The position numbers and the translations under genes were made by a program. Below the pieces are notes generated by a model. That model saw only the letters and a program-made list of their open reading frames with translations. It ran no database searches and was not told the origin of the DNA. From an uncultured Prevotella sp. (lineage in GTDB: Bacteria > Bacteroidota > Bacteroidia > Bacteroidales > Bacteroidaceae), in the NCBI GenBank assembly GCA_900317545.1, contig ONHE01000011.1:1-62136 (forward strand): DNA of 62,136 nt, in the 5' to 3' direction. This document shows, piece by piece, positions 5,116 through 55,049 of this stretch (position 1 is the stretch's first letter; every line of letters begins with the position of its first letter).

Positions 5116-5517
5116 GAAAGCCCCGGCCTGAAACCGAAGCTACACGCCGCAGCGGTCGGACAACATTCTGCTCCTTTGCTGAAAAACCACTTGTCATAGC
5201 TTCGAAACCTGCGAGCGAGACAAACAGAGAAACGGGCTCAATCCCCCATTCCACCGCCCTTTCCGGAGCATCTCACACACCCGCCCGGAACACACGTCTG
5301 ACATGGCCGGCACGGAGCTATCCTCCGGACGGTCAAAAGCTGTCATATGGGCGGCCCAAAGGATAGCTCCGGGCGGCCTAAAGCTATGCTTTGCGTCAGT
5401 CTCCTTTATGCGCTCCCAAAACGAGCTGTTTCCAATGGCTCCGACACCTCATATTTCGACCTTCCCGCCCCTTTCTTTCCGCTTCACCTGTAGCTTTTTT
5501 TTTCAATGCCAAGATAC
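5116..5517. other. Intergenic stretch between converging operons
   Basis: No credible gene is present. It lies between the rpiB and fucI terminators and holds one of the five 22-bp repeat arrays (5314-5392). Short open frames across the array encode repetitive low-complexity peptides and are not taken as genes. Confidence 0.7.
5314..5392 (+). repeat. 22-bp-period palindromic repeat array, copy 1
   Basis: Four 13-bp cores start at 5314, 5336, 5358 and 5380, an exact 22-bp period: GGAGCTATCCTCC, AAAGCTGTCATAT, AAAGGATAGCTCC, AAAGCTATGCTTT. The 9-bp spacers are GGACGGTCA, GGGCGGCCC and GGGCGGCCT. The third core is the inverted form. The array lies between two converging terminators, so it is outside both transcripts if these work. 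It belongs to the same family as arrays at 13721, 21306, 29322 and 54820. Confidence 0.9.
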
Positions 5518-5552
5518 GAAAAATCCCCGCCGTCCATGGTGAGACAGCGGGG
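5518..5552 (-). terminator. Terminator after fucI
   Basis: On the minus strand CCCCGC, a 16-nt loop and GCGGGG are followed by ATTTTTC, 30 bp beyond the fucI stop. It ends the pyk-aldolase-symporter-fucI unit and faces the rpiB terminator. Confidence 0.85.
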
Positions 5553-5581
5553 AGCGGAAAAACAATTTTCAGGTACGGCAC

Positions 5582-7360
5582 TTACTTGTAGATAGGTCCG
5601 AAGTTCTGACATGCACGATAGTCCTGACCCTCCTTGTCCATGCCGAAAGCATTCCAGGCAGACGGCCGGAAGATCTCAGCGTCAGGCACATTATGCATGC
5701 AGACCGGGATGCGGAGCATGCTGGCGAGCGTGATGAGGTCGGCTCCGATGTGCCCATAGGCGATGGCGCCGTGGTTGGCACCCCAGCAGTTCATCACGGA
5801 GTAGACATCCTTGAAGGCGTCCTTCGACGGATCCAGACGCGGCGCAAACCAAGTGGTCGGCCAAGTCTTGTCCGTACGCTTGTTGAGCACATCGTGCACC
5901 TCTGGATCCAAGTCGATTGTCCAGCCTTCTGCCAATTGGAGTACAGGCCCCAGACCTTTGACCAAGTTGATGCGCATCATCGTCATCGGCATGCCGCCGC
6001 GTGTGAGGAAGTTGCTCGAAAAGCCTCCGCCGCGGAAGTAACCACGATCGGCGGGATACCAGTTGGTTGCTTTCAGGCAGGCCTCGATATCCTGTTCGGT
6101 GAGCTCCCACGGTGTCTTGAGAATCGGATTGCCGTCCTTGTCGCTCACAGCACCCGTGGCATCGAGCGTCGTAGCACCACTGTTGATCAAATGGATGAAT
6201 CCATTGGCAGCCGGACCTGTAAGATCCTTACCGGTCACACGCTTGACAGCAGCCGGGCTCCAATAAGTCCGGATGTCGGAGAACATCACACCCCGGTTGG
6301 TCAGCAGATGACCGAAGAGCATCGCGACACCGTTGAGCGAGTCGTTTTCAGTAGCCAACGTGCGTGCCTCACGGGGTCCGTTCCAGTCGAATGACGTACA
6401 CATCATGGCCTCGGGAAAGTCAAAATTGGGCAAGTAATCCGTCCACTGTCGCTGTCCCTGCACGCCTCCGAGAATCGCATTGTGACCCAACGCCTCCTCC
6501 TTGAAGCCCAGTTCTTCAAGCTTCGGATTGCCATACATCAAGTCATTGATGATCAGCATGTTCTTGACTGTGAACTCCCAGTCCTTGTCCTTCTCTTCTC
6601 TCGACTTCACATTCTGCGGCATATTGTAGTCCTGACCTTCGTTCACCTTGCAGTATTTCTCCACCCAAGCCATGGCTTTCTGATACTCTTCGTGATCGTA
6701 GATGCCCAGTTCGACGCGACGCAGAATCTCTACGAGATCCACATATTCATTGCGAATGCCTAAGTAATCCTGGAAGAAGTCGGGATCGATGGTACTTCCT
6801 GCGATGCCCATACACGGTCCGCCCATGCTGAGGTAGCTCTTTCCGCGCATCGTGGCGACGGCTTGCGCAGCCCGTGCAAAGCGCAGGATCTTCTGCGAGA
6901 CATCTTCCGGAATGGTGTTGTCAGTCACATCCTGCACGTCATGGCCATAGATGCCGAAAGTCGGGAGACCCTTCTGGGCATAGGCAGCCAGCACGGCAGC
7001 CAAGTAGACTGCGCCCGGACGCTCCGTGCCGTTGAATCCCCAGACGGCCTTGGGGTAATAAGGATTCATGTCCATTGTCTCGGCTCCATAACACCAGCAG
7101 GATGTGACACTGATCGAAGAGCCTACCCCCTCGCGCTCAAACTTCGCGGCGCAGGCAGCGGCCTCGGCCACTCTGCCGATCGTTCCGTCGGCAATCACGC
7201 ACTCCACGGGCGAACCGTCTCCGTTGCGCAGGTTGCTGCTTATCAGCTCGGCCACAGCCTTCGCCAAGTTCATAGTTTTCTCTTCCAAACTCTCGCGCAC
7301 GCCACCCTGACGCCCATCGATGATGGGACGGATGCCGATTTTAGGATAATTCTGTTTCAT
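5582..7360 (-). CDS. fucI: L-fucose isomerase
   Basis: A 592-residue isomerase of the FucI family, which converts L-fucose to L-fuculose and in several species D-arabinose to D-ribulose, using Mn2+. Diagnostic segments are the N-terminal [19 protein letters not shown], the catalytic region [10 protein letters not shown] (E338) and [10 protein letters not shown] (D362), which align with E337 and D361 of the E. coli enzyme, and a C-terminal [11 protein letters not shown] histidine motif. The ATG at 7360 is chosen over an upstream TTG; it lies 9 bp after the symporter stop. No fuculokinase or fuculose-phosphate aldolase is nearby; the partners are a DapA/NanA-type aldolase and a symporter, so the true substrate is uncertain. 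Confidence 0.92.
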
Positions 7361-7369
7361 AGTCAGCAA

Positions 7370-8851
7370 TTAATTAGTTAAACGATTAGTATTTGTGATT
7401 TTTAAAAGATAGGTCAAGAAGAAACCCACGACGAAAATGACCATCGTACCCAGCACGATCGCCAAGTATTCATGGACATGAATGCCCGGCAGACCAAGCG
7501 GTTCGGCCAGCGAAATCCATGCAATGACGATCACGCCGCATGTCACTGCCACGATCGCATGGATCTTTCCGGCTCTGCGGGCACAATAGCCCAAGAGGAA
7601 CAGACCTAGCATCCCGCCGCTGAAAATGGAACTCAGCGTCCACCAGGCATCAATGATGCTTTCCACACTCAGCATGGCAATGGCCACGATGATGCCCAAG
7701 ACACCGACGCCGATGCTGGATCCCTTGAGCACGAGAACATCTCTGCGGTCGCTGTGCACCTTTGTGAAGGGTTTCACGTAGTCGGTCAGAATGATGGTCG
7801 AAGCACTCGTGATGCTGGTCGCCACCGTGCTCATGCCGGCCGCAAAGATCGACGCAATGAGGAGTCCACGCAGTCCGACGGGCAGCCCGTTGACAATAAA
7901 GTAAGGGAAAACATAATCGGGTTTGGCGGCAATAGCTGCCGGGAGCAGGCCGGGGTGGATCGTGTAGTAGGAATAAAGTGCCGTTCCGATCAGGAAGAAA
8001 AGTGCCGAGACGGGGATGAACAGGTAGCCTCCGAACAAGGCGGAGAAGCGGGCAGCCTTCATGTCCTTGGCCGTATGATAGCGCTGGACATAGTTCTGGT
8101 CGATGCCATAGTTCTGCAGATTGATGAATATACCATAGATCAGGCAAATCCAGAAGGTGCTTGTCGTCAACTCGCCGCTGAAGGATCCCAAGGAGAACTT
8201 ATTGCCTTCGGGCGAATGGATGGCCAGTTCGAAGAGCTGACCGGGTCCTTCAGGCATGTTTACAAACAGCAGGATCAGACAGAACAGCGCGCCGGCGATG
8301 AGGATGAAGCCCTGGATTGCATCCGTCCAAATGACAGCCTTGATGCCGCCCAGCATGGAATAGATGATGATGGCCACACTGGTTGCGATGATCACTGCAT
8401 GGATGTTCCACCCCATCAGAATATACATCGGAACCGCAAGGAGATAAAGGATCGAGCCCATCCGCGCGATCTGAGTCAGCAGATAGCAGGCTGAGGCATA
8501 GATACGTGCCCACACTCCGAAGCGCTCCTCTAAGAAGGCGTAGGCCGAGACACTGCCGCTGCCACGGTAGAAAGGTACAAAGTATTTCGCCGCAAAATAA
8601 GAGGCGATGGGAATGGAGAGACTGAAGACGAAGGCATTCCAATTGCCTGCGAACGCCTTACCGGGATAACCGATGTAGCTGATGGAGCTTACGTAGGTGG
8701 CAAAAATAGACATTCCGACTAACCAACCGGGCAAAGAGTGACTGGCGGAGGTTAACTCTTCGGCCGACGCACCACGCTTCCAGAACGAACATCCAAAGAC
8801 TACGACACCTGCGGTGAACAGTAGAAATATGACAAAATCAATGGTGTTCAT
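7370..8851 (-). CDS. Sodium:solute symporter (SSF family)
   Basis: A 493-residue integral membrane protein with about 13 hydrophobic segments, starting NTIDFVIFLLFTAGVVVFG and containing the SSF hallmarks SISYIGYPGKAF in TM2-3 and LTQIARMGSILYLLAVPMYI. Proteins of this family import sugars, sialic acid, amino acids or vitamins with Na+. It sits between the aldolase (stop to start contact: aldolase ends at 8852, symporter begins at 8851) and fucI (9 bp), so the three are almost certainly co-transcribed and it should import the substrate that the aldolase and isomerase process. Substrate cannot be read from sequence. Confidence 0.88.
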   Translation of the reverse strand: MNTIDFVIFLLFTAGVVVFGCSFWKRGASAEELTSASHSLPGWLVGMSIFATYVSSISYIGYPGKAFAGNWNAFVFSLSIPIASYFAAKYFVPFYRGSGSVSAYAFLEERFGVWARIYASACYLLTQIARMGSILYLLAVPMYILMGWNIHAVIIATSVAIIIYSMLGGIKAVIWTDAIQGFILIAGALFCLILLFVNMPEGPGQLFELAIHSPEGNKFSLGSFSGELTTSTFWICLIYGIFINLQNYGIDQNYVQRYHTAKDMKAARFSALFGGYLFIPVSALFFLIGTALYSYYTIHPGLLPAAIAAKPDYVFPYFIVNGLPVGLRGLLIASIFAAGMSTVATSITSASTIILTDYVKPFTKVHSDRRDVLVLKGSSIGVGVLGIIVAIAMLSVESIIDAWWTLSSIFSGGMLGLFLLGYCARRAGKIHAIVAVTCGVIVIAWISLAEPLGLPGIHVHEYLAIVLGTMVIFVVGFFLTYLLKITNTNRLTN

Positions 8852-9790
8852 TTAAAAAAGCAGTTTTCCGTCCTGAATAGGCAATGCCTCTAAGGCGGCC
8901 TGAATCTTCATCCGTTCGGGCTGATTGAACTTATAGAAAGGCGGAGCCACATAATCATCCTTGATGACTCCTAATATAGAGAGGGCGCACTTGAGTCCTT
9001 TCAGATAGCTCGAACCATGCCGGCCGACCGTGTAGATTGTATCGCTGATCTGCATGATGAACTGCTGCAGACGGTTCACACGCGCTAAATCGCCCTGGCG
9101 GGCGGCATCAAACATAGCCACATAGAGCTCCGGAAACATGTTCGCACCACCGTTGATGCCGCCGTGGGCTCCCATCAGGACGCATTGGGCGGTCATCTCT
9201 TCCGGACCGCAAAGCATCGCGAAGTCGGGGCGCGAGCGCATCTTCCACATCACAGTCTGAAAATATGTGCCATTGGCAGAACTGTCCTTGAAGCCCAACA
9301 CACGCGGATTGGCTGCGAGACGAGCCACTGTCGAAGGCGCAAAACTGACCTTCACATGGCTGGGCATGTTGTAAAGATAAAGCGGCAAGGGCAGCTGCGG
9401 GATGAGATCTTCATAAAATTCGGCGAGCTCGGGTTGTCCCGTGGCAGCATAATAAGGCGGTGCCGAGACGACCGCAGTAGCCCCGCAGTCGGCAGCCTTG
9501 CCAGCTAACCTGATGCTTTCGACGATACTCGTATCCGAGATACATACCAACAGAGGCAGCCGCCCGTTATTGATCCGGCATGATTCGCGTATCATCTGAT
9601 AGCGCAGGTCATAGCTCAGGCTCTGCTCCTCGCCTGTCGTGCCGAGCACAAACAATCCATTCACCCCTCCTGATATCAGATGTTCGATTAGATTTTCCAA
9701 GCTCTCAACGTCGAGCGTCTCACTGTCTTTCAAAGGCGTCACCAACGGTGGGATGATTCCACTCAATGGCACTTGATTTAAGTCAGTCAT
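8852..9790 (-). CDS. DapA/NanA-family class I aldolase (dihydrodipicolinate synthase family)
   Basis: A 312-residue (beta/alpha)8 Schiff-base aldolase. It shows GVNGLFVLGTTGEEQSLS (the GTTGE carboxylate-binding loop), the catalytic tyrosine in PLYLYNMP and the lysine in VLGFKDSS. Family members condense or cleave pyruvate with an aldehyde: dihydrodipicolinate synthase, N-acetylneuraminate lyase and 2-keto-3-deoxy-sugar-acid aldolases. Linkage to a symporter and FucI, rather than lysine genes, favours a catabolic sugar-acid or sialic-acid-like role (inference). It directly abuts the symporter gene and follows pyruvate kinase by 58 bp, which would use or complement the pyruvate node. The precise substrate is open. 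Confidence 0.85.
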   Translation of the reverse strand: MTDLNQVPLSGIIPPLVTPLKDSETLDVESLENLIEHLISGGVNGLFVLGTTGEEQSLSYDLRYQMIRESCRINNGRLPLLVCISDTSIVESIRLAGKAADCGATAVVSAPPYYAATGQPELAEFYEDLIPQLPLPLYLYNMPSHVKVSFAPSTVARLAANPRVLGFKDSSANGTYFQTVMWKMRSRPDFAMLCGPEEMTAQCVLMGAHGGINGGANMFPELYVAMFDAARQGDLARVNRLQQFIMQISDTIYTVGRHGSSYLKGLKCALSILGVIKDDYVAPPFYKFNQPERMKIQAALEALPIQDGKLLF

Positions 9791-9833
9791 GATTTGCAGT
9801 TTGTTGTTTTGATTTGTTCAGTCTATAGAATGG

Positions 9834-9868
9834 GTGAGCGGCAGATCTTCAAGATCTGTCCGGCTCAC
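9834..9868 (-). other. Imperfect hairpin at the pyk 3' end
   Basis: GTGAGC and GCTCAC flank an inner stem of CAGATCTT/AAGATCTG, giving a two-part hairpin that spans the pyruvate kinase stop codon. No U-run follows on either strand, so it is more likely a processing or stability element between pyk and the aldolase than a terminator. Confidence 0.4.
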
Positions 9869-11321: not shown

Positions 11322-11352
11322 TACATTATATATTATATGTTTACCATATCGT

Positions 11353-11360: not shown

Positions 11361-11416
11361 CCGCAGGAATTTGATTTCGGCGGCAGTCAAGTGGGCAGAC
11401 TCAGGATGCCTGCTTG

Positions 11417-12162: not shown

Positions 12163-13254
12163 TTATTCTTCGAAAGGAAGATATCCCTCTTCCCATTGCG
12201 GGAATCGGTCGGTGGCGGACGAAGACGGATTGGTCACGGAAAGCCCGATGAGCCTCACGGGGTGGAGGAATGAATAGTCGACCTGACGGAGGAGCTGCTT
12301 GGCGAGGGGTAGAATCTGCTCCTTTGTCCGGAGCACCTGCCTTTGGGTCAGGCTACGGGTGATCTGCGTGAAGTCGGCAAACTTGACCTTCAGCACCAAG
12401 GTCTTTCCTTCGAATCCGGCTTTCTGCAGCCGTTGGACAAGCTCGAGGGTGATATGATAGAGCTCGATGATCACTGCTGCCTGCGTGGATATATCCTCCC
12501 GGAACGTGCGCTCGCATCCTACGGACTTCCTGACCCATGTCGGCTCGACCGGCCGGTCATCCATTCCGCGGGCGAAATCATAATAGACTCGCCCCACCTT
12601 ACCGAAGACCTTCTCGAGGTGCTGCCGTGAACAGTCGCGCAACTGGGCGCCCGTAAAGATGCCCATTCTGTGCATCCGGTCGGCCGTCTTCGGCCCTACA
12701 GCCCAGAAATCCTCCACGGGCAGCCGGGCCAGAAACGCGTCCGCCTTGTCGGGATGGATCACGCAGAGCCCGTCGGGCTTACGATAATCGGAGGCTATCT
12801 TGGCTAAGAACTTGTTATAGGAGACACCGGCCGAAGCCGTCAGATGCAGCTCTTCCCGGATGCGGCTGCGTATCTCCTTAGCGATGTCGACAGCCATGTC
12901 CATGGCACGCTTGTTGTCCGTCACATCGAGAAAAGCCTCGTCGATGGACAAAGGCTCGATCAAGTCGGTGTAATCCTGGAAGATCCGATGCACCTCAGCC
13001 GACACCTCGCGATAGTGGTGATGGCGGACCGGCACGATGATCAGCTGCGGACAGAGCCGCTTAGCAATCTGGATGGACTGCGCGGAATGTACGCCGAACC
13101 TGCGGGCTTCATAACTTGCCGTGGTGACAATACCGCGCTCGGTGTCAAACCCAACAGCTATCGGCTTTCCACGGAGCGAGGGATCATCGCGTTGTTCCAC
13201 CGAAGCGAAGAAGGCGTCCATATCTACGTGTATGATTTTTCGCAGCTCTTTCAT
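12163..13254 (-). CDS. dinB: DNA polymerase IV (Y-family)
   Basis: A 363-residue translesion polymerase. The catalytic motifs are clear: IIHVDMDAFFASVEQRDDP (metal-binding D and steric-gate F) and the second acidic site SIDEAFLDVT. They are followed by SASAGVSYNKFLAKIASDYRK-type palm, the helix-hairpin-helix FWAVGPKTADRM and the little-finger domain. The C terminus (EEGYLPFEE) is short and lacks a clear QLxLF beta-clamp motif, though GYLPFE might serve. The first ATG must be used because the catalytic Asp is at residue 11. A TATCTTTG box ends only 6 bp before this ATG, implying a leaderless or nearly leaderless message. Confidence 0.94.
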   Translation of the reverse strand: MKELRKIIHVDMDAFFASVEQRDDPSLRGKPIAVGFDTERGIVTTASYEARRFGVHSAQSIQIAKRLCPQLIIVPVRHHHYREVSAEVHRIFQDYTDLIEPLSIDEAFLDVTDNKRAMDMAVDIAKEIRSRIREELHLTASAGVSYNKFLAKIASDYRKPDGLCVIHPDKADAFLARLPVEDFWAVGPKTADRMHRMGIFTGAQLRDCSRQHLEKVFGKVGRVYYDFARGMDDRPVEPTWVRKSVGCERTFREDISTQAAVIIELYHITLELVQRLQKAGFEGKTLVLKVKFADFTQITRSLTQRQVLRTKEQILPLAKQLLRQVDYSFLHPVRLIGLSVTNPSSSATDRFPQWEEGYLPFEE

Positions 13255-13720: not shown

Positions 13721-13821
13721 ACAGGATAGCAGTGCCCGGCGCGGAGCTATCCTTTCGACCGCCAAGAGCTATCATATCGGCGGCCAAGAGCTATGCTCCG
13801 GGCAGCCCAAAGCTATCGTTT
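13721..13821 (+). repeat. 22-bp-period palindromic repeat array, copy 2
   Basis: Cores start at 13743, 13765, 13787 and 13809 (GGAGCTATCCTTT, AGAGCTATCATAT, AGAGCTATGCTCC, AAAGCTATCGTTT), exactly 22 bp apart. A degenerate fifth unit, ACAGGATAGCAGT, sits in phase at 13721. Spacers are CGACCGCCA, CGGCGGCCA and GGGCAGCCC. The array lies between dinB and the HU-like gene. Confidence 0.9.
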
Positions 13822-14249: not shown

Positions 14250-14534
14250 ATGACTAAATCTGACATCATCAGCGAGATAACAGCCAACACCGGCGTGTCA
14301 AAAAAGGAAGTGACAGCCGTCGTTGAAAGCTTCATGGAAGCAGTCAAGGACAGCCTGATCGAGCGCAAAGAGAATGTCTATCTCCGCGGCTTCGGCAGCT
14401 TCATCATCAAGCACCGCGCCGCCAAGACCGCCCGCAATATCACCAAGAATACAACGATCATGATCGAGGCTCATGACCTGCCGAGCTTCAAGCCGGCTAA
14501 AAGTTTTGTCATGCAGATGAAGAATAACGATTGA
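14250..14534 (+). CDS. HU/IHF-family DNA-binding protein
   Basis: A 94-residue nucleoid protein of the HU/IHF superfamily. It starts TKSDIISEITANTGVSKKEV, the helical dimerisation part, and has the GFGSF turn before the beta-arm (LRGFGSFIIKHRAAKTARN), then FKPAK near the end. HU proteins bend and compact DNA as dimers. It is followed by a 29-codon basic gene 48 bp later and then RNase G, an arrangement I recall as common in Bacteroidetes. It has its own promoter. The paralogue type (HU or IHF subunit) cannot be settled by eye. Confidence 0.93.
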   Translation: MTKSDIISEITANTGVSKKEVTAVVESFMEAVKDSLIERKENVYLRGFGSFIIKHRAAKTARNITKNTTIMIEAHDLPSFKPAKSFVMQMKNND

Positions 14535-14768: not shown

Positions 14769-16343
14769 ATGACCAGCGAAGTTGTAATTGACGTTCAACA
14801 GAAACAAATCTCGATTGCCCTGCTGGAAAACAAGAACTTAGTAGAGTATCAGAACGAGCCGAGATCGGCTTCCTTTTCTGTTGGCAACATCTATGTTGCA
14901 AAAGTGAAAAAACTGATGCCAGGACTGAATGCTTGCTTCGTAGATGTTGGTTATGAGCGCGATGCCTTTCTTCATTATCTTGACTTAGGAAGTCAATTTA
15001 ACTCTTATGAAAAGTACCTGAAACAGGTACAGAGCGACAGAAAGAAACTTTATCCCTTTTCAAAAGCATCCAGGCTCCCTGACCTGAAAAAAGATGGAAG
15101 CGTGCAACAGACATTGCAGGTTGGCCAGGAAGTAATGGTGCAGATCGTCAAAGAACCTATTTCGACCAAGGGGCCGCGATTGACAGGAGAACTCAGTTTT
15201 GCGGGACGCTTCCTGGTCCTCATTCCATTCGGAGATAAAGTTTCAGTTTCTTCAAAGATTAAAAACGGTGAAGAGCGGGCGCGTCTCAAGCAACTCATCA
15301 ACAGTATCAAGCCCAAAAACTGCGGCGTCATCGTAAGGACCGTCGCCGAAGGCAAACGAGTCGTCGAACTGGATGCTGAAATGAAGGTGCTGAATCAACG
15401 CTGGGAAGATGCCGTCACAAAAGTACAGAAGACCCAAAAACGTCCACAGCTCATTTTCGAGGAAACCAGTAGAGCCGTCGCCTTGTTGCGCGACCTCTTC
15501 AATCCGAGTTATGAGAACATTTATGTGAATGACGAAAACGTCTTCAAGGAAGTCAAGGAGTATGTCTCACTGATAGCGCCGGAGAAAGCGAATATCGTGA
15601 AACTCTACAACGGCAAGGTGCCCATCTTTGACAACTTCAACGTGACGAAGCAGATCAAGTCCAGCTTCGGCAAAACCATCAACTACAAGCACGGAGCCTA
15701 TCTGATCATCGAGCATACGGAAGCCCTGCATGTCGTCGATGTCAACAGCGGAAACCGGGCACGCTCAGAGAACGGACAGGAAGCCAATGCGCTTGATGTC
15801 AATCTCGGCGCAGCTGATGAGTTGGCACGCCAGTTACGGTTACGGGATATGGGAGGAATCATCGTAGTCGACTTCATCGACATGAATCTGGCAGAAGACA
15901 GGCAGATGCTCTACGAGCGAATGTGCAAGAACATGCAGAAGGATCGTGCCAGACACAACATCCTGCCGTTAAGCAAGTTCGGTCTGATGCAGATCACCCG
16001 CCAACGCGTTCGGCCAGCTATGGACGTCAATGTTGAAGAAAACTGTCCTACATGTTTCGGGACTGGAAAGATCAAATCCAGCATCCTTTTCACTGATCAG
16101 CTTGAAGGGAAAATTGACCGACTAGTCAATAAGATCGGCATTAAGAAGTTTTATCTGCACATCCACCCCTATGTCGCGGCCTATATCAATCAAGGAGTCG
16201 TCTCTCTGAAGCGAAAATGGCAAGTGAAATACGGATTGGGCGTGCACGTGGTTCCATCTCAGAAATTAGCCTTTCTGCAATACGAGTTTTACGATGCTAA
16301 AGGCGAGTTCATCGATATGAAAGAAGAGATAGAAACAAAATGA
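14769..16343 (+). CDS. rng: Ribonuclease G/E family endoribonuclease
   Basis: A 524-residue endoribonuclease involved in rRNA maturation and mRNA decay. The N-terminal S1 domain is visible (VGNIYVAKVKKLMPGLNACFVDVGYERDAF), then the 5' sensor region and the DNase I-like catalytic domain with the metal-binding aspartates in HVVDVNSGNRA (D324) and IIVVDFIDMN (D368). A Zn-link, NCPTCFGTGK, follows near residue 428. Length fits RNase G rather than RNase E, which has a long C-terminal scaffold. The only in-frame readthrough control is the hairpin upstream; no separate promoter is clear, so it probably depends on readthrough from the HU-like gene. Confidence 0.95.
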   Translation: MTSEVVIDVQQKQISIALLENKNLVEYQNEPRSASFSVGNIYVAKVKKLMPGLNACFVDVGYERDAFLHYLDLGSQFNSYEKYLKQVQSDRKKLYPFSKASRLPDLKKDGSVQQTLQVGQEVMVQIVKEPISTKGPRLTGELSFAGRFLVLIPFGDKVSVSSKIKNGEERARLKQLINSIKPKNCGVIVRTVAEGKRVVELDAEMKVLNQRWEDAVTKVQKTQKRPQLIFEETSRAVALLRDLFNPSYENIYVNDENVFKEVKEYVSLIAPEKANIVKLYNGKVPIFDNFNVTKQIKSSFGKTINYKHGAYLIIEHTEALHVVDVNSGNRARSENGQEANALDVNLGAADELARQLRLRDMGGIIVVDFIDMNLAEDRQMLYERMCKNMQKDRARHNILPLSKFGLMQITRQRVRPAMDVNVEENCPTCFGTGKIKSSILFTDQLEGKIDRLVNKIGIKKFYLHIHPYVAAYINQGVVSLKRKWQVKYGLGVHVVPSQKLAFLQYEFYDAKGEFIDMKEEIETK

Positions 16344-21243: not shown

Positions 21244-21675
21244 TTATCACCTTGTTGCGCCGATTCAACCATTCCCGCGAAACGGATGATAATTATGGCC
21301 GGGCGAAAGCTATGCTTTGGGCGGCCAAGAGCTATCCTTTAGGCGGCCAAGAGCTATGCTTTGGGCGGCCGAAAGCATAGCTCCGCGCCGGCCGGAGAAA
21401 CGGTCCGCAGAAAGAAGCGGATAAGTATTTATCAATCAAAGGGTTTCACAGAACTTGGCGAAGCCATGATTTTCTGAGGGAACGGCTCTCCACCGATGAA
21501 GCGGAAAAGCATCCTCCGGATGGGCTTGGTGGCGGTCCGGAGGAGCCTCCCATAACCTCTCCGACAGGAGGGGAACTGTTGCGGGATGAGCAATTACCTC
21601 ACACAGGTCTTCCTTCAAGACGGCTTGCGAATGACAAACGGACGGTAGGGAGATCTCGAATGGCAATTCACGGAA
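21244..21675. other. Intergenic region with a repeat array
   Basis: Holds repeat copy 3 (21306-21384). The rest, up to the rprY terminator, shows no credible gene; open frames on both strands lack family resemblance and start signals. Confidence 0.6.
21306..21384 (+). repeat. 22-bp-period palindromic repeat array, copy 3
   Basis: The best-preserved copy. Cores at 21306, 21328, 21350 and 21372 (AAAGCTATGCTTT, AGAGCTATCCTTT, AGAGCTATGCTTT, AAAGCATAGCTCC) are exactly 22 bp apart. Spacers are GGGCGGCCA, AGGCGGCCA and GGGCGGCCG. The last core is inverted. It is 63 bp after the small membrane protein gene. Confidence 0.93.
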
Positions 21676-29213: not shown

Positions 29214-29556
29214 CAGATGATAATGGAAAGCAAAAAGGCAAGATGCGCCGGAGGCTCATGACAAGGCCGGCAGACGCGCAGCAGCCCTCACCGCAAGTCA
29301 TTGATTGCCAACGCCATACGAAAAGCTATCCTTTGGACCGTCCAAAGCATAGCTTTCGGTCGCCAAGAGCTATCGTTTCGACGGCCCGGAGGATAGCTCT
29401 GCGCGGACCAGAGGACAGCTATGCTCCGGGGACAGGTCTGAAGGGCACGTTCCGGCCGTGGCTAACAACCCTCAGAAAGAGTCACTGACGGCATCGCGGA
29501 GCGGATCCCGGGCCTCCAAAGGACAGGCGTCTTTCAATCTAATTTTCGATCAATCA
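29214..29556. other. Leader or intergenic region upstream of the kinase pair
   Basis: Contains repeat copy 4 (29322-29422) and no recognised gene. The kinase frame extends upstream to 29458, but those 33 residues are low-complexity and not family-like. A TAATTTTC sequence at 29540-29547 is a one-mismatch -7 candidate close to the ATG. Confidence 0.55.
29322..29422 (+). repeat. 22-bp-period palindromic repeat array, copy 4
   Basis: Five in-phase units start at 29322, 29344, 29366, 29388 and 29410: AAAGCTATCCTTT, AAAGCATAGCTTT, AGAGCTATCGTTT, GGAGGATAGCTCT and AGAGGACAGCTAT. Spacers are GGACCGTCC, CGGTCGCCA, CGACGGCCC and GCGCGGACC, more diverged than in other copies. Units 2, 4 and 5 are inverted. 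It is upstream of the deoxynucleoside kinase genes. Confidence 0.88.
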
Positions 29557-39009: not shown

Positions 39010-39084
39010 AGTTTCCAAAGATTGATGCCGCACACTAAGCGGACGGCAGACTCGTCGGCTCGATCGGTCGATGAGAGGAAAAAA

Positions 39085-39452
39085 GAAACAGTGCCCTGAT
39101 AAGCCGGGTTCTGTATCCTCCCGAAGGAGGAGCTCCGTCATTTATCTACGCTACAGGTCGCCCCGCAGCTCCAGCATTCTACCCTCCATCGTACGTACGT
39201 TCGGACGAGCAGCCCTCAGACGATGGTATACATGAACTTGCAGCCTCCAGCGGCACAGCCTGATGATCACCCATCAGCCGGTAGTCTCTTACACTGCCTT
39301 CTCACCCTTACCCTTACGGGCGGTTCTTTTCTTCTGCCTGACCCTATCGTCACCGGTAGCTTCTATTTTCGGAAGTGGAGTGCTCTGTGCTGCCCGGACT
39401 TTCCTCTCGCACCTTAATGGTACCAGCGACAGAGCCGGGGCACTGTCTTCTT
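39085..39452 (-). ncRNA. rnpB: RNase P RNA, class A
   Basis: On the minus strand the conserved core GAGGAAAGTCCGGGC is found near the 5' end (about 39392-39407) and the 3' end has ACAGAACCCGGCTTA. The termini CAGTGCCC and GGGCACTG pair as helix P1. The RNA cleaves the 5' leader of pre-tRNAs. A TATCTTTG promoter box lies just upstream, and a T-rich run (TTTCTTTTTT) follows P1 as a terminator. The ends are placed to within a few bases. Protein-coding frames across this region are not real. Confidence 0.95.
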
Positions 39453-48077: not shown

Positions 48078-49307
48078 TCATGGTTGTGTTAATTCTACTT
48101 TCAAAGGAGCATCCAGCGCCTTGAGAAACTCGTCGATCCGCAGCTGCCATTCTGCTTGTGAACGGACATCGGCCTTGCTCCATGCACTTCCGAAATAATA
48201 GGAATATTTCTGATTGTTGCCTATGTTGCGCACCACGCCGATGGCATGTCCGACTGCTCCATCGGCCGGTTTGTCGTACAAAAGCTTTTTTGTAGCCGAA
48301 ACACCATTGGGAAACAGCGCGCCCACATAGAGCTGATACTGATGGCGGGGATCGTCGGTCGGATCTGCATATTGAACAAACCGATCTCCGACCACAACGC
48401 TCTCGGTATCCTCCTCATGGATAACGACTCCTGCAGCCAGATCATGTCTGGCTGTCAGACCTTCATACCACACGGTCATCTTGTTGAAATTGGAGTTCTT
48501 ATCCAAGCTGATAATGCGATGCTCTATCACGTTCCGGTCTCTTCCGACGACAGCCGGGTTGTAGGTTAAGGCGACGGTAAAACGAAGCGGACCATTGTCG
48601 AGGATCTTGTAGGTGCTGAAGCGATAGGGCATGACGAGAGCCCCGTCAACCATCAGAGCCGGTGTGCCGCAACCCAAGGTCGGTCCTACCTTATAGGCAT
48701 CCAAGCCATAGCCGTGGTCTATATGGAACGAAGTGGCCAAGCGCGATTCGTTAGCCGCCTCCCTGTTGCCCGCCTTCTTGAGCCTCATGGTTTCTGCGTT
48801 GCCCTCCCGGTTCATCCGATAGCGCATGTCAAGCACGGTATCCGGCTGGTTCTTCGTCCACACATCAATGCCGTAAGCCTTCTCTCCACTACGTTGCAGG
48901 GCGGGTCCGTAAACACGGTATGCACCCCGGTCGTTCTCCCAGGCGATATCGTCCATCCGTTCCGGATAGAATCTGCCCTGTGTCCAGATGTGCATTTTAC
49001 GAGGCACACCTGCGGCTATCGTGTATTCGGCAGTTCCCCCGGGGCATACTGTCACTTCGAATATGAGTTTGCCGTCGTAGGTGATCTGATAGTCCTGCTG
49101 GCTGCCGATGGCGTCCCTGACGACAAACGGCTGGCCGGCAGAGATGCCCAACTGCTTATACACTTCATTAATCTGCAGTTCGATGAGTTCCTGTCTTTGG
49201 TTTTTCTCCGCATTGCTGACGCGCACCTTTACATTGCCGGCCGTCGCTCCGGCCGATACCAACAGGAGGGCAGCGAGTATGATTCTGATAGTCTTCATGT
49301 TGTTCAT
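48078..49307 (-). CDS. DUF4861-family secreted protein, copy A
   Basis: A 409-residue protein with a signal peptide (TIRIILAALLLVSAGATA) and a beta-rich body, including GGTAEYTIAAGVPRK, WENDRGAYRVYGPALQ and LDMRYRMN. Its pattern, with the segment RKMHIWTQGRFYPERMDDIAWENDR, resembles the DUF4861 family, seen in Bacteroidetes polysaccharide loci and not biochemically characterised to my knowledge. It lies 7 bp after the peptidase gene and 10 bp before iorA, so it appears to be inside an amino-acid catabolic operon, which is unexpected. A paralogue is at 53540. Two ATGs (49307, 49298) are possible starts. Confidence 0.8.
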   Translation of the reverse strand: MNNMKTIRIILAALLLVSAGATAGNVKVRVSNAEKNQRQELIELQINEVYKQLGISAGQPFVVRDAIGSQQDYQITYDGKLIFEVTVCPGGTAEYTIAAGVPRKMHIWTQGRFYPERMDDIAWENDRGAYRVYGPALQRSGEKAYGIDVWTKNQPDTVLDMRYRMNREGNAETMRLKKAGNREAANESRLATSFHIDHGYGLDAYKVGPTLGCGTPALMVDGALVMPYRFSTYKILDNGPLRFTVALTYNPAVVGRDRNVIEHRIISLDKNSNFNKMTVWYEGLTARHDLAAGVVIHEEDTESVVVGDRFVQYADPTDDPRHQYQLYVGALFPNGVSATKKLLYDKPADGAVGHAIGVVRNIGNNQKYSYYFGSAWSKADVRSQAEWQLRIDEFLKALDAPLKVELTQP

Positions 49308-49314
49308 AAGTCTG

Positions 49315-51534
49315 TTATTTTAATGTTGTCTCAAAGAAATTGCTGATCTGTCTCAGGAGATGATGCCGTGTGTTACCGCCATAGATGCTGTGATTGCGGT
49401 TCGTATAATAGATCTCCCGGAAGTCCTTGTCAGCCTGTACGAGCGCTTCGGCATATTCAAATGTGTTCTGCGGATGGACATTGTCGTCCACGGAGCCGTG
49501 ACAGATCAACAATGCACCGTGTAGCTTCGAAGCCCGCAGGATAGGATTGTCGCCATAGCCCTCGGCGTTTTCCTTCGGCGTGCGCATATACCGTTCGGTG
49601 TAGACGGAGTCATAGAAGCGCCAGCTGGTCGGTGGTGCGACTGACACGCCGGCCCGGAACACGCCGCGCCCTTCACTCATGCTCATCAGCGTGTTGAATC
49701 CTCCGTAGCTCCAGCCCCATATTCCGATACGGTCTTTGTCTACATAGGGAAGCGTTGACAGATACAAGGCGGTTTCCACCTGATCCCTTGATTCGAGTTT
49801 GCCAAGATTCAGATAGGTGCACTTCTCGAAGTCTGAACCGCGTCCTCCTGTGCCCCGACCATCCACACAGACGACCACAAAGCCGTGCTGAGCGAGATAA
49901 TGATCATAGAGGCCACCCTGTCCCATGGAGCCTGAGGCCCATGCATTCTTCACCTGCTGGCTGCCCGGTCCGCTATACTGATACATGATCACAGGATACT
50001 TCCGTGAAGCAGAGAAGTCCGCAGGCTTGACGATCCAGCCATCCAGCTTCACGCCTTCGGAAGTCGTGAAGGTAAACATTTCGCGATTGGAGAGACGGTA
50101 TTTGGCGAGCTCGTCTGTCAATTCACGGTTGTCCAACATGGTTTCGACAATCTTACCTTTCTTATTACGGATGGTATAGACATACGGATGGTTCAGGTCG
50201 CTCCATGTATTGATGAACGAAGAGAAATCCTTCGCGAAGAGCGCATCATTCCAGCCTTCCTGATCCGTGAGCCGTTCGGCCTTCCCATTCTTATGAGACA
50301 CGAACACCTGACGGTCATGCGGATTGAGCGCTGCGGCCTGATAGTAGACATCGCCTGATGCCTCATCGTACCCGTAGACGGCAGTCACGTCGTACGCACC
50401 ATCACTGATCTTCCGCAACAAGGTCCCGTTCAACGAGTAGAGATACAGTCTCATGAATCCGTCACGGTCACTTGGAAGGAGGATACTGTTTTTCCCGATC
50501 GTGATCCCTTCCATGGCCTCTTCCTTGACATATTTCAGGACACGCTCCTGAATGATCAGTTGCGAAACCGTGCTGTATGGGTTGACGGCATAGAGATTCA
50601 GTTCGTCCTGATGACGGTTCATCGTATAGACGACGATCTTCTGCGGATCGGCCGTCGGCTTGATCCTCGGCATATAGCCGTCGGCGGCTATCGGCACCTG
50701 CAACTGTCGGGTCTTGTGGCTCTTGATGTCATAGGACCAGGCGGTGACTGTCGCATTGTCCTCGCCCGCTTTTGGATATTTGTAGGTATAGAAGGAAGGG
50801 TAGACCGCGTTTTCGGTATGTTCCGGACGCAGTCCCTTGTACCACTGCAGCGAGTAGGTCTTCACTTTGCTCTCGTCATATTTGAGCCAGCAAATCATCG
50901 AACCGTCAGCCGTGAAGGTCAAGGCACGGTCGAAGCCGAACTCTTCTTCATTGACCCAGTCGGGAATACCGTTGATGATCTCGTTGAATTTGCCGTCTTT
51001 GGTCACCTGGCTTTCAGCATTGTCATAGAGCAGTTTGACCAAATAGATGTTGTTGTCGCGTACGAATGCCACCTGCAGACCATCCGGCGACCATGTCGGG
51101 ACCTGTTGCGGACCGCCCTGGGAGAGTTTCTCCAACTTGCGGCTCTTCATATTATATATGTAGAAGACGGCCTTGTAGGACCTGCGGTAGACGGGCTCCG
51201 TCTGTGTCCGGATCAACATCCTGTCTCCGGTGGGCGACATGACATATCCGTCAAACCCTTCGATCTTTTCTCCCTGAGTGTTGCCGACGTCGAAGAGCAC
51301 CGCCGTCTGCTTCCCTGTCTTGAATGAATACCGGACGATCTGCTTGCCGTCCTGGCTGATCTGTGCATACTGGTCCGTGCCCTCCAAAGGATTGATGCCT
51401 TTCACGGTCCGGGCAGCAATCTTTCCATTGGCTACGGCTTTCAATTCGAGCCTTTCCTGTGCATGTAGTCCAAAGGATCCTAACACGAGAACGGCACACG
51501 CTGCAATAAAATTTTTCATTTGTTGTTTTTTCAT
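49315..51534 (-). CDS. Prolyl oligopeptidase-family dipeptidyl peptidase (DPP IV-like, S9B)
   Basis: A 739-residue exported peptidase with a signal peptide (KNFIAACAVLVLGSFGLHAQ), an N-terminal beta-propeller (PTWSPDGLQVAFVRDNNIYLV, WVNEEEFGFDRAL) carrying the EE pair that recognises the peptide N terminus, and a C-terminal hydrolase domain with S609 (GWSYGGF), an aspartate at 683-684 (SVDDNVHP) and H715 (NRNHSIYGG). It releases X-Pro dipeptides from oligopeptides in the periplasm. ATG 51534 is used; 51519 is possible. It heads the five-gene minus-strand unit. Confidence 0.9.
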   Translation of the reverse strand: MKKQQMKNFIAACAVLVLGSFGLHAQERLELKAVANGKIAARTVKGINPLEGTDQYAQISQDGKQIVRYSFKTGKQTAVLFDVGNTQGEKIEGFDGYVMSPTGDRMLIRTQTEPVYRRSYKAVFYIYNMKSRKLEKLSQGGPQQVPTWSPDGLQVAFVRDNNIYLVKLLYDNAESQVTKDGKFNEIINGIPDWVNEEEFGFDRALTFTADGSMICWLKYDESKVKTYSLQWYKGLRPEHTENAVYPSFYTYKYPKAGEDNATVTAWSYDIKSHKTRQLQVPIAADGYMPRIKPTADPQKIVVYTMNRHQDELNLYAVNPYSTVSQLIIQERVLKYVKEEAMEGITIGKNSILLPSDRDGFMRLYLYSLNGTLLRKISDGAYDVTAVYGYDEASGDVYYQAAALNPHDRQVFVSHKNGKAERLTDQEGWNDALFAKDFSSFINTWSDLNHPYVYTIRNKKGKIVETMLDNRELTDELAKYRLSNREMFTFTTSEGVKLDGWIVKPADFSASRKYPVIMYQYSGPGSQQVKNAWASGSMGQGGLYDHYLAQHGFVVVCVDGRGTGGRGSDFEKCTYLNLGKLESRDQVETALYLSTLPYVDKDRIGIWGWSYGGFNTLMSMSEGRGVFRAGVSVAPPTSWRFYDSVYTERYMRTPKENAEGYGDNPILRASKLHGALLICHGSVDDNVHPQNTFEYAEALVQADKDFREIYYTNRNHSIYGGNTRHHLLRQISNFFETTLK

Positions 51535-51545
51535 ATAAGATGATG

Positions 51546-51577
51546 CAAAGATATAAAATAATAAGTATTTTTGCAAA
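51546..51577 (-). promoter_or_regulatory. Promoter of the peptidase-IorAB operon
   Basis: Minus strand: TTTG (51574-51577), 20-bp spacer, TATCTTTG (51546-51553), ending 11 bp before the ATG. It overlaps a rightward -7 box at 51566. Confidence 0.82.
51566..51573 (+). promoter_or_regulatory. -7 box of the radical SAM gene, inside the divergent promoter
   Basis: TATTTTTG, 32 bp before the ATG at 51606. It lies within the spacer of the minus-strand promoter, so both cannot be occupied at once. Confidence 0.6.
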
Positions 51578-51605
51578 GGATTTATATGAAAAGATTTGTC
51601 TGATC

Positions 51606-52517
51606 ATGGAACTGCCCTACAACGACTTCGGAACGTGGATTCGACGCCGATTTCCCTACCGCGTCCAGAAGATCTCCATCGACTCGGGATTCAGTTGTCC
51701 CAATCGGGACGGCCGAATCTCCACGGGCGGGTGCACCTATTGTGACAACCGCACGTTCAATCCCTCCTATTGCGACCGGCGGAAGACGGTGGCCGAACAG
51801 ATAGAAGAAGGCAAGCGGTTTTTCGCGCGCAAGTATCCGGACATGAAATATCTTGCCTATTTCCAGGCCTTCACCAACACCTACGCTCCGCTCCGGCGTC
51901 TTCAGACACTCTATGAGGAGGCGTTGGCGGTCGACGATGTGGTGGGCATCGTCATCGGCACGCGTCCCGATTGCATTACGGATGAACTGCTCGATTATCT
52001 CGAAACACTCAACCGGCGGACGTTTCTCTTAGTGGAATACGGCATTGAGTCAGCCAATGACACAACCCTGGCTGCCATCAACCGGGGCCATACGTTTGCC
52101 TGCAGCCGCGAAGCCATCGAAAAGACCCATGCCAAAGGCATCCTCACCGGCGCGCACATCATCCTCGGACTGCCCGGTGAAGGCGCACAGGAGTCGCTCC
52201 GCCAGGCGCCGGTCATCTCGTCACTCCCGATCGATGTGCTGAAAATCCACCAGATGCAGATCATCCGCGGCACTAAGCTCGCTCTGCAATATGAGACAAA
52301 CCCGTTTCCGGTCTATGGCCTTCAGGAATACCTGCAGTTGGCCGCCGACTACCTGCGACGCCTGCGCGCGGATCTAATTATCGACCGATTCACGAGCCAG
52401 GCGCCTGCCGAACTGCTCATTGCGCCACGCTGGGGCATCAAAAACCATGAGTTTGCCGACCTGCTGATCCAACATTTGAAAAGGACGGGAGCCCGGCAAG
52501 GCGACTTAACGACCTAA
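51606..52517 (+). CDS. Radical SAM protein, YhcC/TIGR01212 family
   Basis: A 303-residue radical SAM protein. The cluster motif is spaced CPNRDGRISTGGCTYC, that is C-x12-C-x2-C instead of C-x3-C-x2-C, which is diagnostic of the TIGR01212 family. LAYFQAFTNTYAP, IGTRPDCITDELLDYL and VEYGIESANDTTL follow. The E. coli relative is YhcC; the reaction is not established as far as I know. The ATG at 51606 is used in place of an upstream ATG at 51540 that lies before the promoter box. Its end overlaps the converging lipoprotein gene by 12 bp. Confidence 0.92.
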   Translation: MELPYNDFGTWIRRRFPYRVQKISIDSGFSCPNRDGRISTGGCTYCDNRTFNPSYCDRRKTVAEQIEEGKRFFARKYPDMKYLAYFQAFTNTYAPLRRLQTLYEEALAVDDVVGIVIGTRPDCITDELLDYLETLNRRTFLLVEYGIESANDTTLAAINRGHTFACSREAIEKTHAKGILTGAHIILGLPGEGAQESLRQAPVISSLPIDVLKIHQMQIIRGTKLALQYETNPFPVYGLQEYLQLAADYLRRLRADLIIDRFTSQAPAELLIAPRWGIKNHEFADLLIQHLKRTGARQGDLTT

Positions 52518-53309
52518 ACCTTGAATATCGTTATTCATCATGAGAAAGGGCACCGTGACCTTTGAGTGTTTCTTCATGAAACGGTCCACCATCTTGACAT
52601 ACGGTGTATTGTAGAGGTTCTGACCGATCACTTTATTGACCGTCCACATCACCTTGCCCATGTGGATGTCGCGTTCCAACTGGGTGCGCGAATCAAATTG
52701 GTCAAGCGGATAGAGGCTCAGGAGATAGAAGGTGAGACAATCAGGCACGATATAGCTCCTTGTCATCGACTGCCGTTGAGCATAGGAGTAGAACTTTTCA
52801 TACAGGCTGTAGTTCGAGCCCATATACTTATCCAAGCAGATACCGATCATCTTGTCGCCCACGATGATGCTTTGGTCGAACGAACCGATCTGCGCATAAA
52901 TAACAGGAATCGGCAGGTCGGGAAACCATTTCCTCAACTTGCCGAACCCTTGCTGTAACTGTGCGTTGATGTCATCCATCTTTGCATATTCCGATGTCAC
53001 GTCAAGGAGTAGCTGCTGGAGCGTCGAATCCTGATAGAAACGTAAAAAACGGGTTGCGATGTCCTGATCACTCATGACGCCGATCTGCAGGACTTTCTCA
53101 ATGAGTGTGCGTGACTGCATGGGATAGAGGATGTTCATCTCCTGCATGGCTGAGAAATCACCGGTCGTCAGATATCTGCTCTGCAAGCGGTCAAAACGCT
53201 GCACTTCGATACGCCCATAGTGCTCCCCAGCCCCGTTGGGACTGAGTTTGAACTCGCATGCTATACACAATAGAGCTGTCATCAAGAGCAGACATGATAC
53301 TTTTTTCAC
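52506..53309 (-). CDS. gldB: GldB-like lipoprotein
   Basis: A 267-residue lipoprotein with signal and lipobox LLCIAC (acylated Cys18). The body contains RIEVQRFDRLQSRYL, FYQDSTLQQLLLDVTSEY, YAQIGSFDQSIIVGDKMIGICLDKYMGSNYSLY and VPDCLTFYLLSLYPL, which match the GldB/DUF2268-like pattern known from gliding motility and type IX secretion loci of Bacteroidetes. In non-gliding Bacteroidales the role is unknown. It is monocistronic, with a consensus promoter. Confidence 0.82.
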   Translation of the reverse strand: MKKVSCLLLMTALLCIACEFKLSPNGAGEHYGRIEVQRFDRLQSRYLTTGDFSAMQEMNILYPMQSRTLIEKVLQIGVMSDQDIATRFLRFYQDSTLQQLLLDVTSEYAKMDDINAQLQQGFGKLRKWFPDLPIPVIYAQIGSFDQSIIVGDKMIGICLDKYMGSNYSLYEKFYSYAQRQSMTRSYIVPDCLTFYLLSLYPLDQFDSRTQLERDIHMGKVMWTVNKVIGQNLYNTPYVKMVDRFMKKHSKVTVPFLMMNNDIQGLGR

Positions 53310-53345
53310 AAGTGTTTTCTACAATCCTTTTAATTGTTTCGCTTA

Positions 53346-53377
53346 CAAAAGTACTAAAAAATATTTCTAAATCCAAA
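53346..53377 (-). promoter_or_regulatory. Promoter of the GldB-like gene
   Basis: Minus strand: TTTG (53374-53377), 20-bp spacer, TACTTTTG (53346-53353), 36 bp before the ATG. Confidence 0.8.
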
Positions 53378-53501
53378 TTTTAAGCTAAAAAAAACAAACA
53401 AGTATCGAGAAAAAAGCTATTTAAGTTTAATTTAATAAAATTGTCATACCATAATTACGGAATAAGTCCTGATTTTGCAGACTTACTTAAAAAAAATGGC
53501 G

Positions 53502-53509
53502 TATCTTTG
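53502..53509 (+). promoter_or_regulatory. -7 box of the second DUF4861 gene
   Basis: TATCTTTG, 30 bp before the ATG at 53540. TTTG at 53474-53477 is 24 bp away, longer than usual. Confidence 0.65.
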
Positions 53510-53539
53510 CAATCAAAATCTACAAATAATCAAAAACTA

Positions 53540-54754
53540 ATGAAACATTTTCCATTCATGGCTGCCGCCCTTCTGTTCTGTTCCAACGTCATGGCACAGC
53601 GGAGCTTGACGGTCAGCATCACCAATCCTTCCAACCATGGCAGAACCGACGCACCCGTAGTGCTCTCGCTTGCCAAATACGGCAAGGTCGGCTCGGCCAT
53701 CGTATCCATCGACGGCAAGGAGATCCCGTCGCAGCTGGATGACCTGAACAAGGACGGCCGTTACGACGAACTGGCCTTCACCCTCGACTTAGCAAGGAAA
53801 GAGACCAAAAAAGCGCATATCGTCCTGTTTGCCACCGGCAAGCCCCGCACCTACAAGCCCCGCACGTTTGCCGAAATCGTGATGCGCAACACAAGCGTGC
53901 AGGAAAAGAACAAGCACAACATCTATCTGTCGGCAATCAGCGTGGAGAAGGCTACCCCAAACCAATACACGCTGCTCCACCATCACGGCGTGGCTTTCGA
54001 GAGCGAACTCGTGGCCTTGCGCATCTACTTTGACAATCGCCAGACGATCGATCTCTACGGAAAGTACCACAAACAGTTGGAGATCGAGCAGACTCAATTC
54101 TATCCCTCCAAGGAGCAGAAGGCCAACGGATTCGGCGACGACATCCTTTGGGTGGGCAACACTTTCGGCCTTGGGGCCATGCGCGGATGGAATGGCACAG
54201 AGCCGACGATGATCACCGACGTCGAAAACCGATGCCAGCGCGTCTTGGCCAAGGGCCCCGTACGCACCATCGTCGAGATGGAAGACAACCAGTGGACGAT
54301 CGACCCGAACAAGCAGCCCGTCAACATGGTCATCCGCTACACGCTCTATGCCGGCCATAGAGACATTGCCGTCAGCGTGCGGTTCAGCCGTCCCGTGGGC
54401 GACTTTGAATTCTCTACCGGCATCATCAACGTGAAAAATTCGACCGAGTTCAGCGACAAAGCCGGATTGCGGGGATGCTGGGGCCGCGACTGGCCAGGCG
54501 GAAAGCCTCAGGAGGGATTCAAGGAGGAGACCGTGGGATTAGGCATCTACATCCCCACACGATTCATCCGCAGCGAGCGTCCCGCAGACAAGGACAACTA
54601 CGGCTATGTCATCCGTACCGCTACCAACCGGCTCAACTATGCCATTGCGTTCAACAGCGACAACGAAGAGTTTGGCATGCACTCGGAGAAGGACTGGTTT
54701 GACTGGCTGAAGACATGGAAGAGCGACCTGCAGACACCGCTCCTCATCAAGTGA
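53540..54754 (+). CDS. DUF4861-family secreted protein, copy B
   Basis: A 404-residue protein with a signal peptide (KHFPFMAAALLFCSNVMAQ) and a beta-rich body resembling copy A in layout: IDGKEIPSQLDDLNKDGRYDELAF, FESELVALRIYFDNRQTIDLYGKY, and WVGNTFGLGAMRGWNG. DUF4861 members often lie beside polysaccharide lyases or glucuronyl hydrolases, but none is next to this one. The start at 53540 is preferred over an upstream frame that precedes the promoter. It is monocistronic and followed after 65 bp by repeat copy 5. Confidence 0.82.
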   Translation: MKHFPFMAAALLFCSNVMAQRSLTVSITNPSNHGRTDAPVVLSLAKYGKVGSAIVSIDGKEIPSQLDDLNKDGRYDELAFTLDLARKETKKAHIVLFATGKPRTYKPRTFAEIVMRNTSVQEKNKHNIYLSAISVEKATPNQYTLLHHHGVAFESELVALRIYFDNRQTIDLYGKYHKQLEIEQTQFYPSKEQKANGFGDDILWVGNTFGLGAMRGWNGTEPTMITDVENRCQRVLAKGPVRTIVEMEDNQWTIDPNKQPVNMVIRYTLYAGHRDIAVSVRFSRPVGDFEFSTGIINVKNSTEFSDKAGLRGCWGRDWPGGKPQEGFKEETVGLGIYIPTRFIRSERPADKDNYGYVIRTATNRLNYAIAFNSDNEEFGMHSEKDWFDWLKTWKSDLQTPLLIK

Positions 54755-55049
54755 CGCAAATGCCGCCGGAAGGCCGTCCGAATCATGCCGCTTAGGCATA
54801 GCATAACTGCGCCCTGCGCAAAGCTATGCTCCGGGCGGCCAAGAGCTATCCTTTTGGCGGCCCAAAGCTATGCTCCGGGGCGCCCGGAGCATAGCTCTGC
54901 GGAGCCCACATTTAAAACATTGATTTTCAACAGCTTACAAAACCACCTCACGGGAGGTAAAAAGAACCGGACTCCAATCGGCTTCCGGCTCTTTGCATGC
55001 AGGCATTTCCTGTCTGCTACGCATGGTAGCACCAGCCGTGTTTGCAGGC
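54755..55049. other. Intergenic region with a repeat array
   Basis: Contains repeat copy 5 (54820-54898) and the motif TCAACAGCTTACAAAA at 54927-54942. No gene was recognised. Confidence 0.6.
54820..54898 (+). repeat. 22-bp-period palindromic repeat array, copy 5
   Basis: Cores at 54820, 54842, 54864 and 54886 (AAAGCTATGCTCC, AGAGCTATCCTTT, AAAGCTATGCTCC, GGAGCATAGCTCT), exactly 22 bp apart. Spacers are GGGCGGCCA, TGGCGGCCC and GGGGCGCCC. The last core is inverted, as in copy 3. An out-of-phase partial core (AGGCATAGC) lies just upstream at 54794. Confidence 0.92.

Follow-up and report, generated by a model that had tools for sequence, protein, structure and literature searches.

The DNA described here is a window of 62,136 nucleotides from an uncultured Prevotella sp. 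(GenBank assembly GCA_900317545.1, contig ONHE01000011.1, positions 1 to 62,136 of the forward strand), which contains five intergenic arrays of short, near-palindromic repeats (Table 1). Each array holds four canonical 13-bp cores and every in-register spacing is 22 bp, as a preliminary description of this DNA had stated, and the cores would thus lie on the same face of the helix, which that description had also proposed. Its count of "four or five cores" stands in part: the cores taken as a fifth are degenerate neighbours in register with the canonical run, located at 13721-13733 in array 2 (where the canonical run starts at 13743), at 29410-29422 in array 4 (the match at 29415 being off register) and at 54798-54810 beside array 5.

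Table 1. Position and surroundings of the repeat arrays and of two further features of the window
Feature	Position	Strand	Composition	Surroundings
Array 1	5314..5392		four 13-bp cores at 22 bp	between rpiB (+, ends 5060) and fucI (-, 5582-7369), convergent
Array 2	13743..13821		four cores at 22 bp	between dinB-like gene (-, 12163-13254) and HU/IHF-family gene (+, 14250)
Array 3	21306..21384		four cores at 22 bp	convergent by home-made gene calls
Array 4	29322..29400		four cores at 22 bp	upstream of deoxynucleoside kinase gene
Array 5	54820..54898		four cores at 22 bp	66 bp past DUF4861 gene (+, ends 54754)
HU/IHF-family DNA-binding protein gene	14250..14534	+	PF00216; 1 of 5 matches in the genome	beside array 2
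RNase P RNA (class A)	39084-39446	-	191.7 bits	

The arrays belong to an element that occurs throughout the genome, as had been suggested. The assembly (3.18 Mb in 213 contigs, 87% complete; G000 below) holds 563 exact RRAGCTATSCTYY cores versus 0 for the reversed pattern, and two cores separated by a 9-bp gap match the window 14 times with up to 2 mismatches versus 0 matches in 100 dinucleotide shuffles; a chance origin was rejected on these grounds. A lack of further copies would, by the preliminary description, have refuted the observation, and the genome count rules that outcome out. The analysis covered 1.07 Mb of G000 and 0.32 Mb of a close sibling, Prevotella sp. isolate SUG954, which is 89-95% identical to G000 across aligned blocks. 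This sibling accounts for 43 of the 46 stretches retrieved by the exact-pattern scan; the other 3 (L092, L093, L095) are single chance matches in unrelated taxa and were excluded from the array set and from later analyses. A score of at least 60 was reached by a set of 115 arrays, 67 of them from 925 kb of G000 and the other 48 from SUG954. Genes were called with our own script rather than with a standard caller.

The 22-bp lock extends beyond the window: in SUG954 all 155 of 155 unit spacings are 22 bp when 20-24 bp are allowed (with stricter scoring off 22), and the chains consist of four units in 30 of 49 cases and of five in 15. As the set of 115 was picked by a four-unit score, it cannot itself prove that number, and the number of units was also determined without imposing one, by starting each chain from an exact core and adding units that had no more than 2 mismatches. 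Four units were again the commonest (37 of 71 chains in G000, 29 of 55 in SUG954), the remaining chains having one to five units or being cut by the edge of the sequence. At a very permissive profile cut, 42% and 34% of 108 arrays had units adjoining the four; just four units were counted in 35 of these arrays and five in 56.

The core formula and the spacer given originally required some correction. The core reads RRAG-CTATS-CTYY or its flip, RRAG-SATAG-CTYY, with ATATG/CATAT arm variants, and the 9-bp spacer is not a fixed GGGCGGCCA, being itself a degenerate palindrome close to GGRCSGYCC. Core and spacer are palindromic only at the purine/pyrimidine level, and since both are degenerate palindromes of this kind, the array presents a dyad every 11 bp. 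Within the cores, A3 (99%) and T11 (100%) are nearly invariant over the 432 units of 108 arrays, and the arms come as words (CGGAG, SAAAG, AAGAG, CATAT). Cores with two identical arms are under-represented (64 versus 116 expected in 419 units), as are perfect 5+5 palindromes (36 versus 66 expected). The arrays also tend toward mirror-like ends.

The arrays show constraint without copying. All 115 are distinct; the 67 of G000 have a mean pairwise identity of 61% and a maximum of 89%, and core identity is 64% within an array versus 60% between arrays. Orthologous sites looked up from SUG954 carry an array in 7 of 9 cases, the other two being one decayed remnant and one weak call with no clean empty site among the nine, and those looked up from G000 carry one in 7 of 7. 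This evidence shows no sign of recent copying as a miniature inverted-repeat transposable element (MITE). Seven ungapped sibling pairs differ by 60 changes in 553 sites (29 transitions, 31 transversions), of which 15 are adjacent doublets, mostly swaps between allowed words; at orthologous places the arrays change by whole words, for instance AAGAG to CGGAG or TT to CC. Whole units also come and go: the SUG954 orthologue of array 3 (L100) carries one extra 22-bp unit, and at the site of L102 G000 is without exactly 44 bp, the remainder having decayed so that it no longer fits the words.

The intergenic location reported for the window holds generally, none of the 115 arrays lying inside a called gene. 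Among the 99 arrays with both neighbours available, 39 are convergent, 45 tandem and 15 divergent, compared with 107, 659 and 110, respectively, for all junctions; in tandem gaps the arrays are nearer to the 3' end of the upstream gene (mean relative position 0.32, n=46). Contigs picked without regard to arrays (551 kb) contained 24-26 of them, from which about 150 per genome can be extrapolated. There is a weak suggestion that the arrays keep apart from each other and are evenly spaced. In the same 551 kb there are 0 pairs closer than 6 kb versus 3.6-3.8 expected (P 0.03-0.04); in the relative G012 there are 3 close pairs versus 6.9 expected in partly chosen DNA (P 0.035), and its contig C51 has 0 pairs closer than 3.6 kb versus 3.3 expected (P 0.017). 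A lower score threshold admits three short distances (105, 2926 and 3368 bp), which trace back to a remnant of two units next to an array, to a weak call and to a degenerate array. The idea of a tight 8-kb period was abandoned, as distances reach 25-45 kb.

A minority of the arrays is accompanied, in fixed helical phase, by the motif WATCAA-N4-TTR, which we take to be the E. coli IHF consensus and which marks a candidate site. It occurs in 30 of 115 gaps with an array versus 10 of 433 without, and given that array gaps are longer, the densities are 0.54 versus 0.14 per kb. In a looser form of the motif, N4 is the one spacing that is clearly enriched (0.85 versus 0.40 per kb). Sites pointing outward lie mostly 14-15, 26, 37-38, 49 and 59-60 bp from the array end, with a phase coherence R of 0.93 at 11.45 bp (n=23, some being orthologous pairs and not independent) that was reached by 0 of 3000 simulations. 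The inward-pointing sites (n=15) have a best period of 12.05, an incomplete series in which sites up to 5 bp from the array were merged. Genes of the HU/IHF family were found in all 12 genomes searched, and the product of the one beside array 2 is a possible binder of the edge motif. Downstream of this gene is one of the RNase E/G family (14769-16343).

Beyond the two siblings, the genus keeps the dyadic 22-bp geometry with mostly unrelated sequence. Among 39 relatives the RRAGCTATSCTYY core is abundant in G012 (190 versus 1 for the control), reaches 23-25 copies in G006, G008 and G014, and numbers 0-10 per genome in the rest (control 0-12). When 22 other genomes of the genus (2-44 kb of each) were scanned by sequence-agnostic autocorrelation, 27 clusters appeared at lag 22 and 12 at lag 44, with 0-9 at other lags except lag 21 (15) and lag 14 (11). 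Across 16 genomes of the genus and 2 from the order, 24 clusters had lag 22 as their primary lag and 7 had lag 44, and dyad symmetry was significant (P<0.05) in 67% of the lag-22 clusters versus 12% of those at other lags. Dyadic arrays at lag 22 or 44 were present in 9 of the 16 genus genomes (G001, G006, G010, G016, G017, G040, G042, G043 and G055) and absent from the sampled DNA of G003, G005, G009, G019, G041, G048 and G049. The units differ strongly by genome, for example AAAACCTACGGTTTCGCAACGC in G017 and AAGAAGGCGTTTCTTC plus a spacer in G042, and a AAAGCTATGCTTT core is common to G012 and G055. Apart from a run of N, none was detected in other genera of the family (93 kb) or in the order (135 kb), in samples that mostly flank conserved genes and contain little intergenic DNA.

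Some genomes displayed further peculiarities. Several arrays of G012 (L168, L169, L171, L174, L180, L182, L185 and L186) have long, near-identical flanks, and a larger repeated element carries some arrays in that genome. In G006 (L245, L246) several different families of 22-bp arrays share 40 kb with other short repeats, and at G008:C23:64148-64328 GAAGCTATGCTTC cores recur every 21 bp, not 22. Two additional genomes, G134 and G138, hold one lag-22 cluster each (L327 3009-3200; L328 1132-1320).

The statement that no described family matches the arrays needs care, as several known systems share some of their habits. Plasmid iterons are often direct repeats of ~22 bp near an IHF site, and the arrays, a minority of which have a candidate IHF site nearby, recall this arrangement; they differ from iterons in being many, dispersed over a chromosome-sized assembly and made of palindromic units. 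IHF reportedly binds the RIB elements (reiterative IHF-binding mosaic elements) of E. coli. The repetitive extragenic palindromes (REPs) and bacterial interspersed mosaic elements (BIMEs) of this bacterium are dispersed intergenic palindromes situated downstream of genes or between convergent genes (PMC3733652; PMC6379681), and gyrase is described there to bind BIME-2 (PMC6379681). The arrays resemble REP, BIME and RIB elements in their intergenic, 3'-end and convergent placement, and differ from them in that the units stand in tandem with a strict 22-bp period and a dyad every 11 bp, GTAG is nearly absent, no link to REP-associated tyrosine transposases (RAYTs) was found and the sequence is replaced between species. 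By analogy, BIME-2 and RIB would be the nearest functional comparison.

Within Bacteroidota, the PINSR element of Prevotella intermedia/nigrescens is portrayed in the available part of its description as a 188-bp intergenic repeat that shares with the arrays the range of copy numbers, the intergenic location and the restriction to a lineage (PMC4755523). It is set apart by the absence of terminal inverted repeats, in contrast to the mirror-like array ends, and that part of the description does not mention a 22-bp periodicity (PMC4755523). Compared by description and not by sequence, PINSR may be a relative of the arrays; no array was found downstream of the tryptophanase gene in G134, which has no bearing on this kinship. 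The BrickBuilt MITE of Porphyromonas gingivalis (19 copies in strain ATCC 33277) likewise consists of intergenic tandem short repeats, but it has a 23-nt unit, another consensus and terminal inverted repeats like those of IS5-family ISPg elements (PMC4596501). A literature search that fell short of most subscription journals retrieved no published description of 22-bp arrays in Prevotella.

Protein binding, nucleoid organisation and a role in RNA had all been suggested for the arrays, and protein binding is the best reading. With a probability of roughly 40%, the arrays would be sites of nucleoprotein assembly at the DNA level, a scaffold that organises the chromosome and is BIME- and RIB-like in habit. 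A putative dyad-binding protein, probably lineage-specific, would line up on some four neighbouring 22-bp units along the same face of the helix, and at part of the arrays a protein of the IHF/HU family would bend the DNA at the phased site near the array edge. These complexes, situated chiefly downstream of genes and in convergent gaps, would serve to organise the chromosome or to set its topology, much like BIME and RIB elements. The proposal is favoured by the constraint without copying, the signs of a role in DNA rather than RNA, the placement, the phased edge motif with its enrichment near arrays (also in G012) and the presence of HU/IHF-family genes in all 12 genomes searched, a pattern that fits constrained protein-binding sites repeated at the ends of transcription units and in part set in phase with a bend site. 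Geometry, constraint, placement, the phased motif and the recurrence in the genus with altered sequence are observed; that proteins bind, which proteins these are and that they organise the chromosome is inferred.

A number of results weigh against this proposal. Array positions are not common to G000/SUG954 and G012 (0 of 13 array-bearing gene ends on the 3' side and 2 of 7 on the 5' side, in a small sample of 61 orthologue-like pairs), and conservation of positions between species is thus not supported. The loose motif is found within 70 bp at only 41 of 108 arrays. In G012, whose spacers and often also cores are different, the motif does concentrate near arrays (1.24 versus 0.07 per kb elsewhere) and is N4-specific (19 versus 0-4), but at least six of these sites lie in one larger repeated element and are thus not independent. 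Ten other genomes pooled also show a higher density (0.43 versus 0.08 per kb), with N4 not being specific (N1 10, N4 5, N6 7). As to spacing, the repulsion between arrays scoring at least 68 in DNA that was not chosen blindly (pairs closer than 4 kb: 0 of 13 versus 8.0 expected in G000, 0 of 4 versus 9.1 in SUG954) is overstated, most of that DNA having been selected for the arrays in it, and at the same distance the blind 551 kb gave 0 pairs versus 2.5-2.6 expected (P 0.09-0.10).

The main rival, doubtful in itself yet a serious contender, is a selfish REP- or MITE-like element that would spread in each lineage by means of a putative enzyme, its copies surviving where no promoter was struck. 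Lineage-specific sequences, the lack of common positions in G000 and G012, the REP-like convergent and 3' placement and the G012 arrays that are part of a larger repeated element would all be expected from it, but every copy is distinct and the nine orthologous sites looked up from SUG954 include no clean empty one (seven with an array, one decayed remnant, one weak call). The search for an enzyme did not favour it either: G012 gave no Y1-transposase match, and the three Y1-transposase-like genes of G000 all sit on one contig without an exact core (C30; L191, 1-3449; 3.4 kb), and mobility of the RAYT/REP type is not supported. Mu-transpos_C (Mu/Tn7-type transposase) had no match in 12 genomes, with a positive control that was likewise silent. 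Contig C30 carries repeated GGGACGGTTCT-type words and, judging from its repeats, resembles foreign (clostridial) DNA binned with this genome. GTAG or its complement is present in 2 of 108 arrays, and CGTC or its complement in 67 of 108, anywhere in the array, the spacer consensus being able to spell CGTC by itself. Transport as phage or plasmid cargo is not supported, as viral contigs had no match to two exact patterns and plasmids none to one array (the phages collection was not searched). The claim that the arrays are not CRISPR (clustered regularly interspaced short palindromic repeats) was borne out, given that the spacers follow one degenerate pattern while the cores vary (cas genes were not sought).

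The arrays probably act at the DNA rather than the RNA level, and it is improbable that they are transcribed hairpins of 3' untranslated regions, terminators or mRNA stabilisers. Such a role would agree with their position after genes and with their good folding (minimum free energy z mean -3.9 against shuffles in 40 arrays), a value which is, however, expected of palindrome arrays. Across 81 arrays, strong coupling between columns is confined to short range, and the weak long-range couplings (0.15-0.17 bits), few in number, do not combine into stems; G-U pairs (91) do not exceed A-C pairs (106) in sense-strand cores, and of 45 arrays flanked by tandem genes, 19 have a sense strand that is the more stable of the two and 26 one that is the less stable. 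The avoidance of perfect palindromes argues in the same direction, and RNase P RNA is the sole Rfam match at gathering score in the window, none of its arrays matching a model. Operator arrays of a global transcription regulator, equally improbable, would account for dyadic, tandem, intergenic sites with degenerate half-sites, but not for the proximity to the 3' end of the upstream gene in tandem gaps, the preference for convergent gaps or the positions that G012 does not share. Least probable is a neutral minisatellite expansion without function: decayed edge units in a tandem repeat and siblings that differ by whole 22-bp units are what it predicts, but the arrays are little homogenised internally, obey the same strict words from one to another and have a phased motif at their edges.

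The proposal of DNA-level assembly sites can be extended to the genus as a whole, in a form that is unlikely as it stands. There would be a Prevotella class of chromosomal elements in which selection holds the geometry, that is, tandem dyadic 22-bp units with dyads every 11 bp, joined in some species at least by a helically phased, IHF-like bend, while the sequence is replaced by lineage; each lineage would have its own fast-evolving cognate binder, and the arrays would be chromosome-organising stations. Such a class would also offer a frame for re-examining PINSR. If the geometry is kept while the sites change sequence between species, the protein and its sites would have been re-matched repeatedly, which would be unusual for bacterial chromosome proteins. 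If true, the arrays would provide a visible map of chromosome stations in a gut genus, and the domain organisation of Bacteroidota chromosomes would become directly testable.

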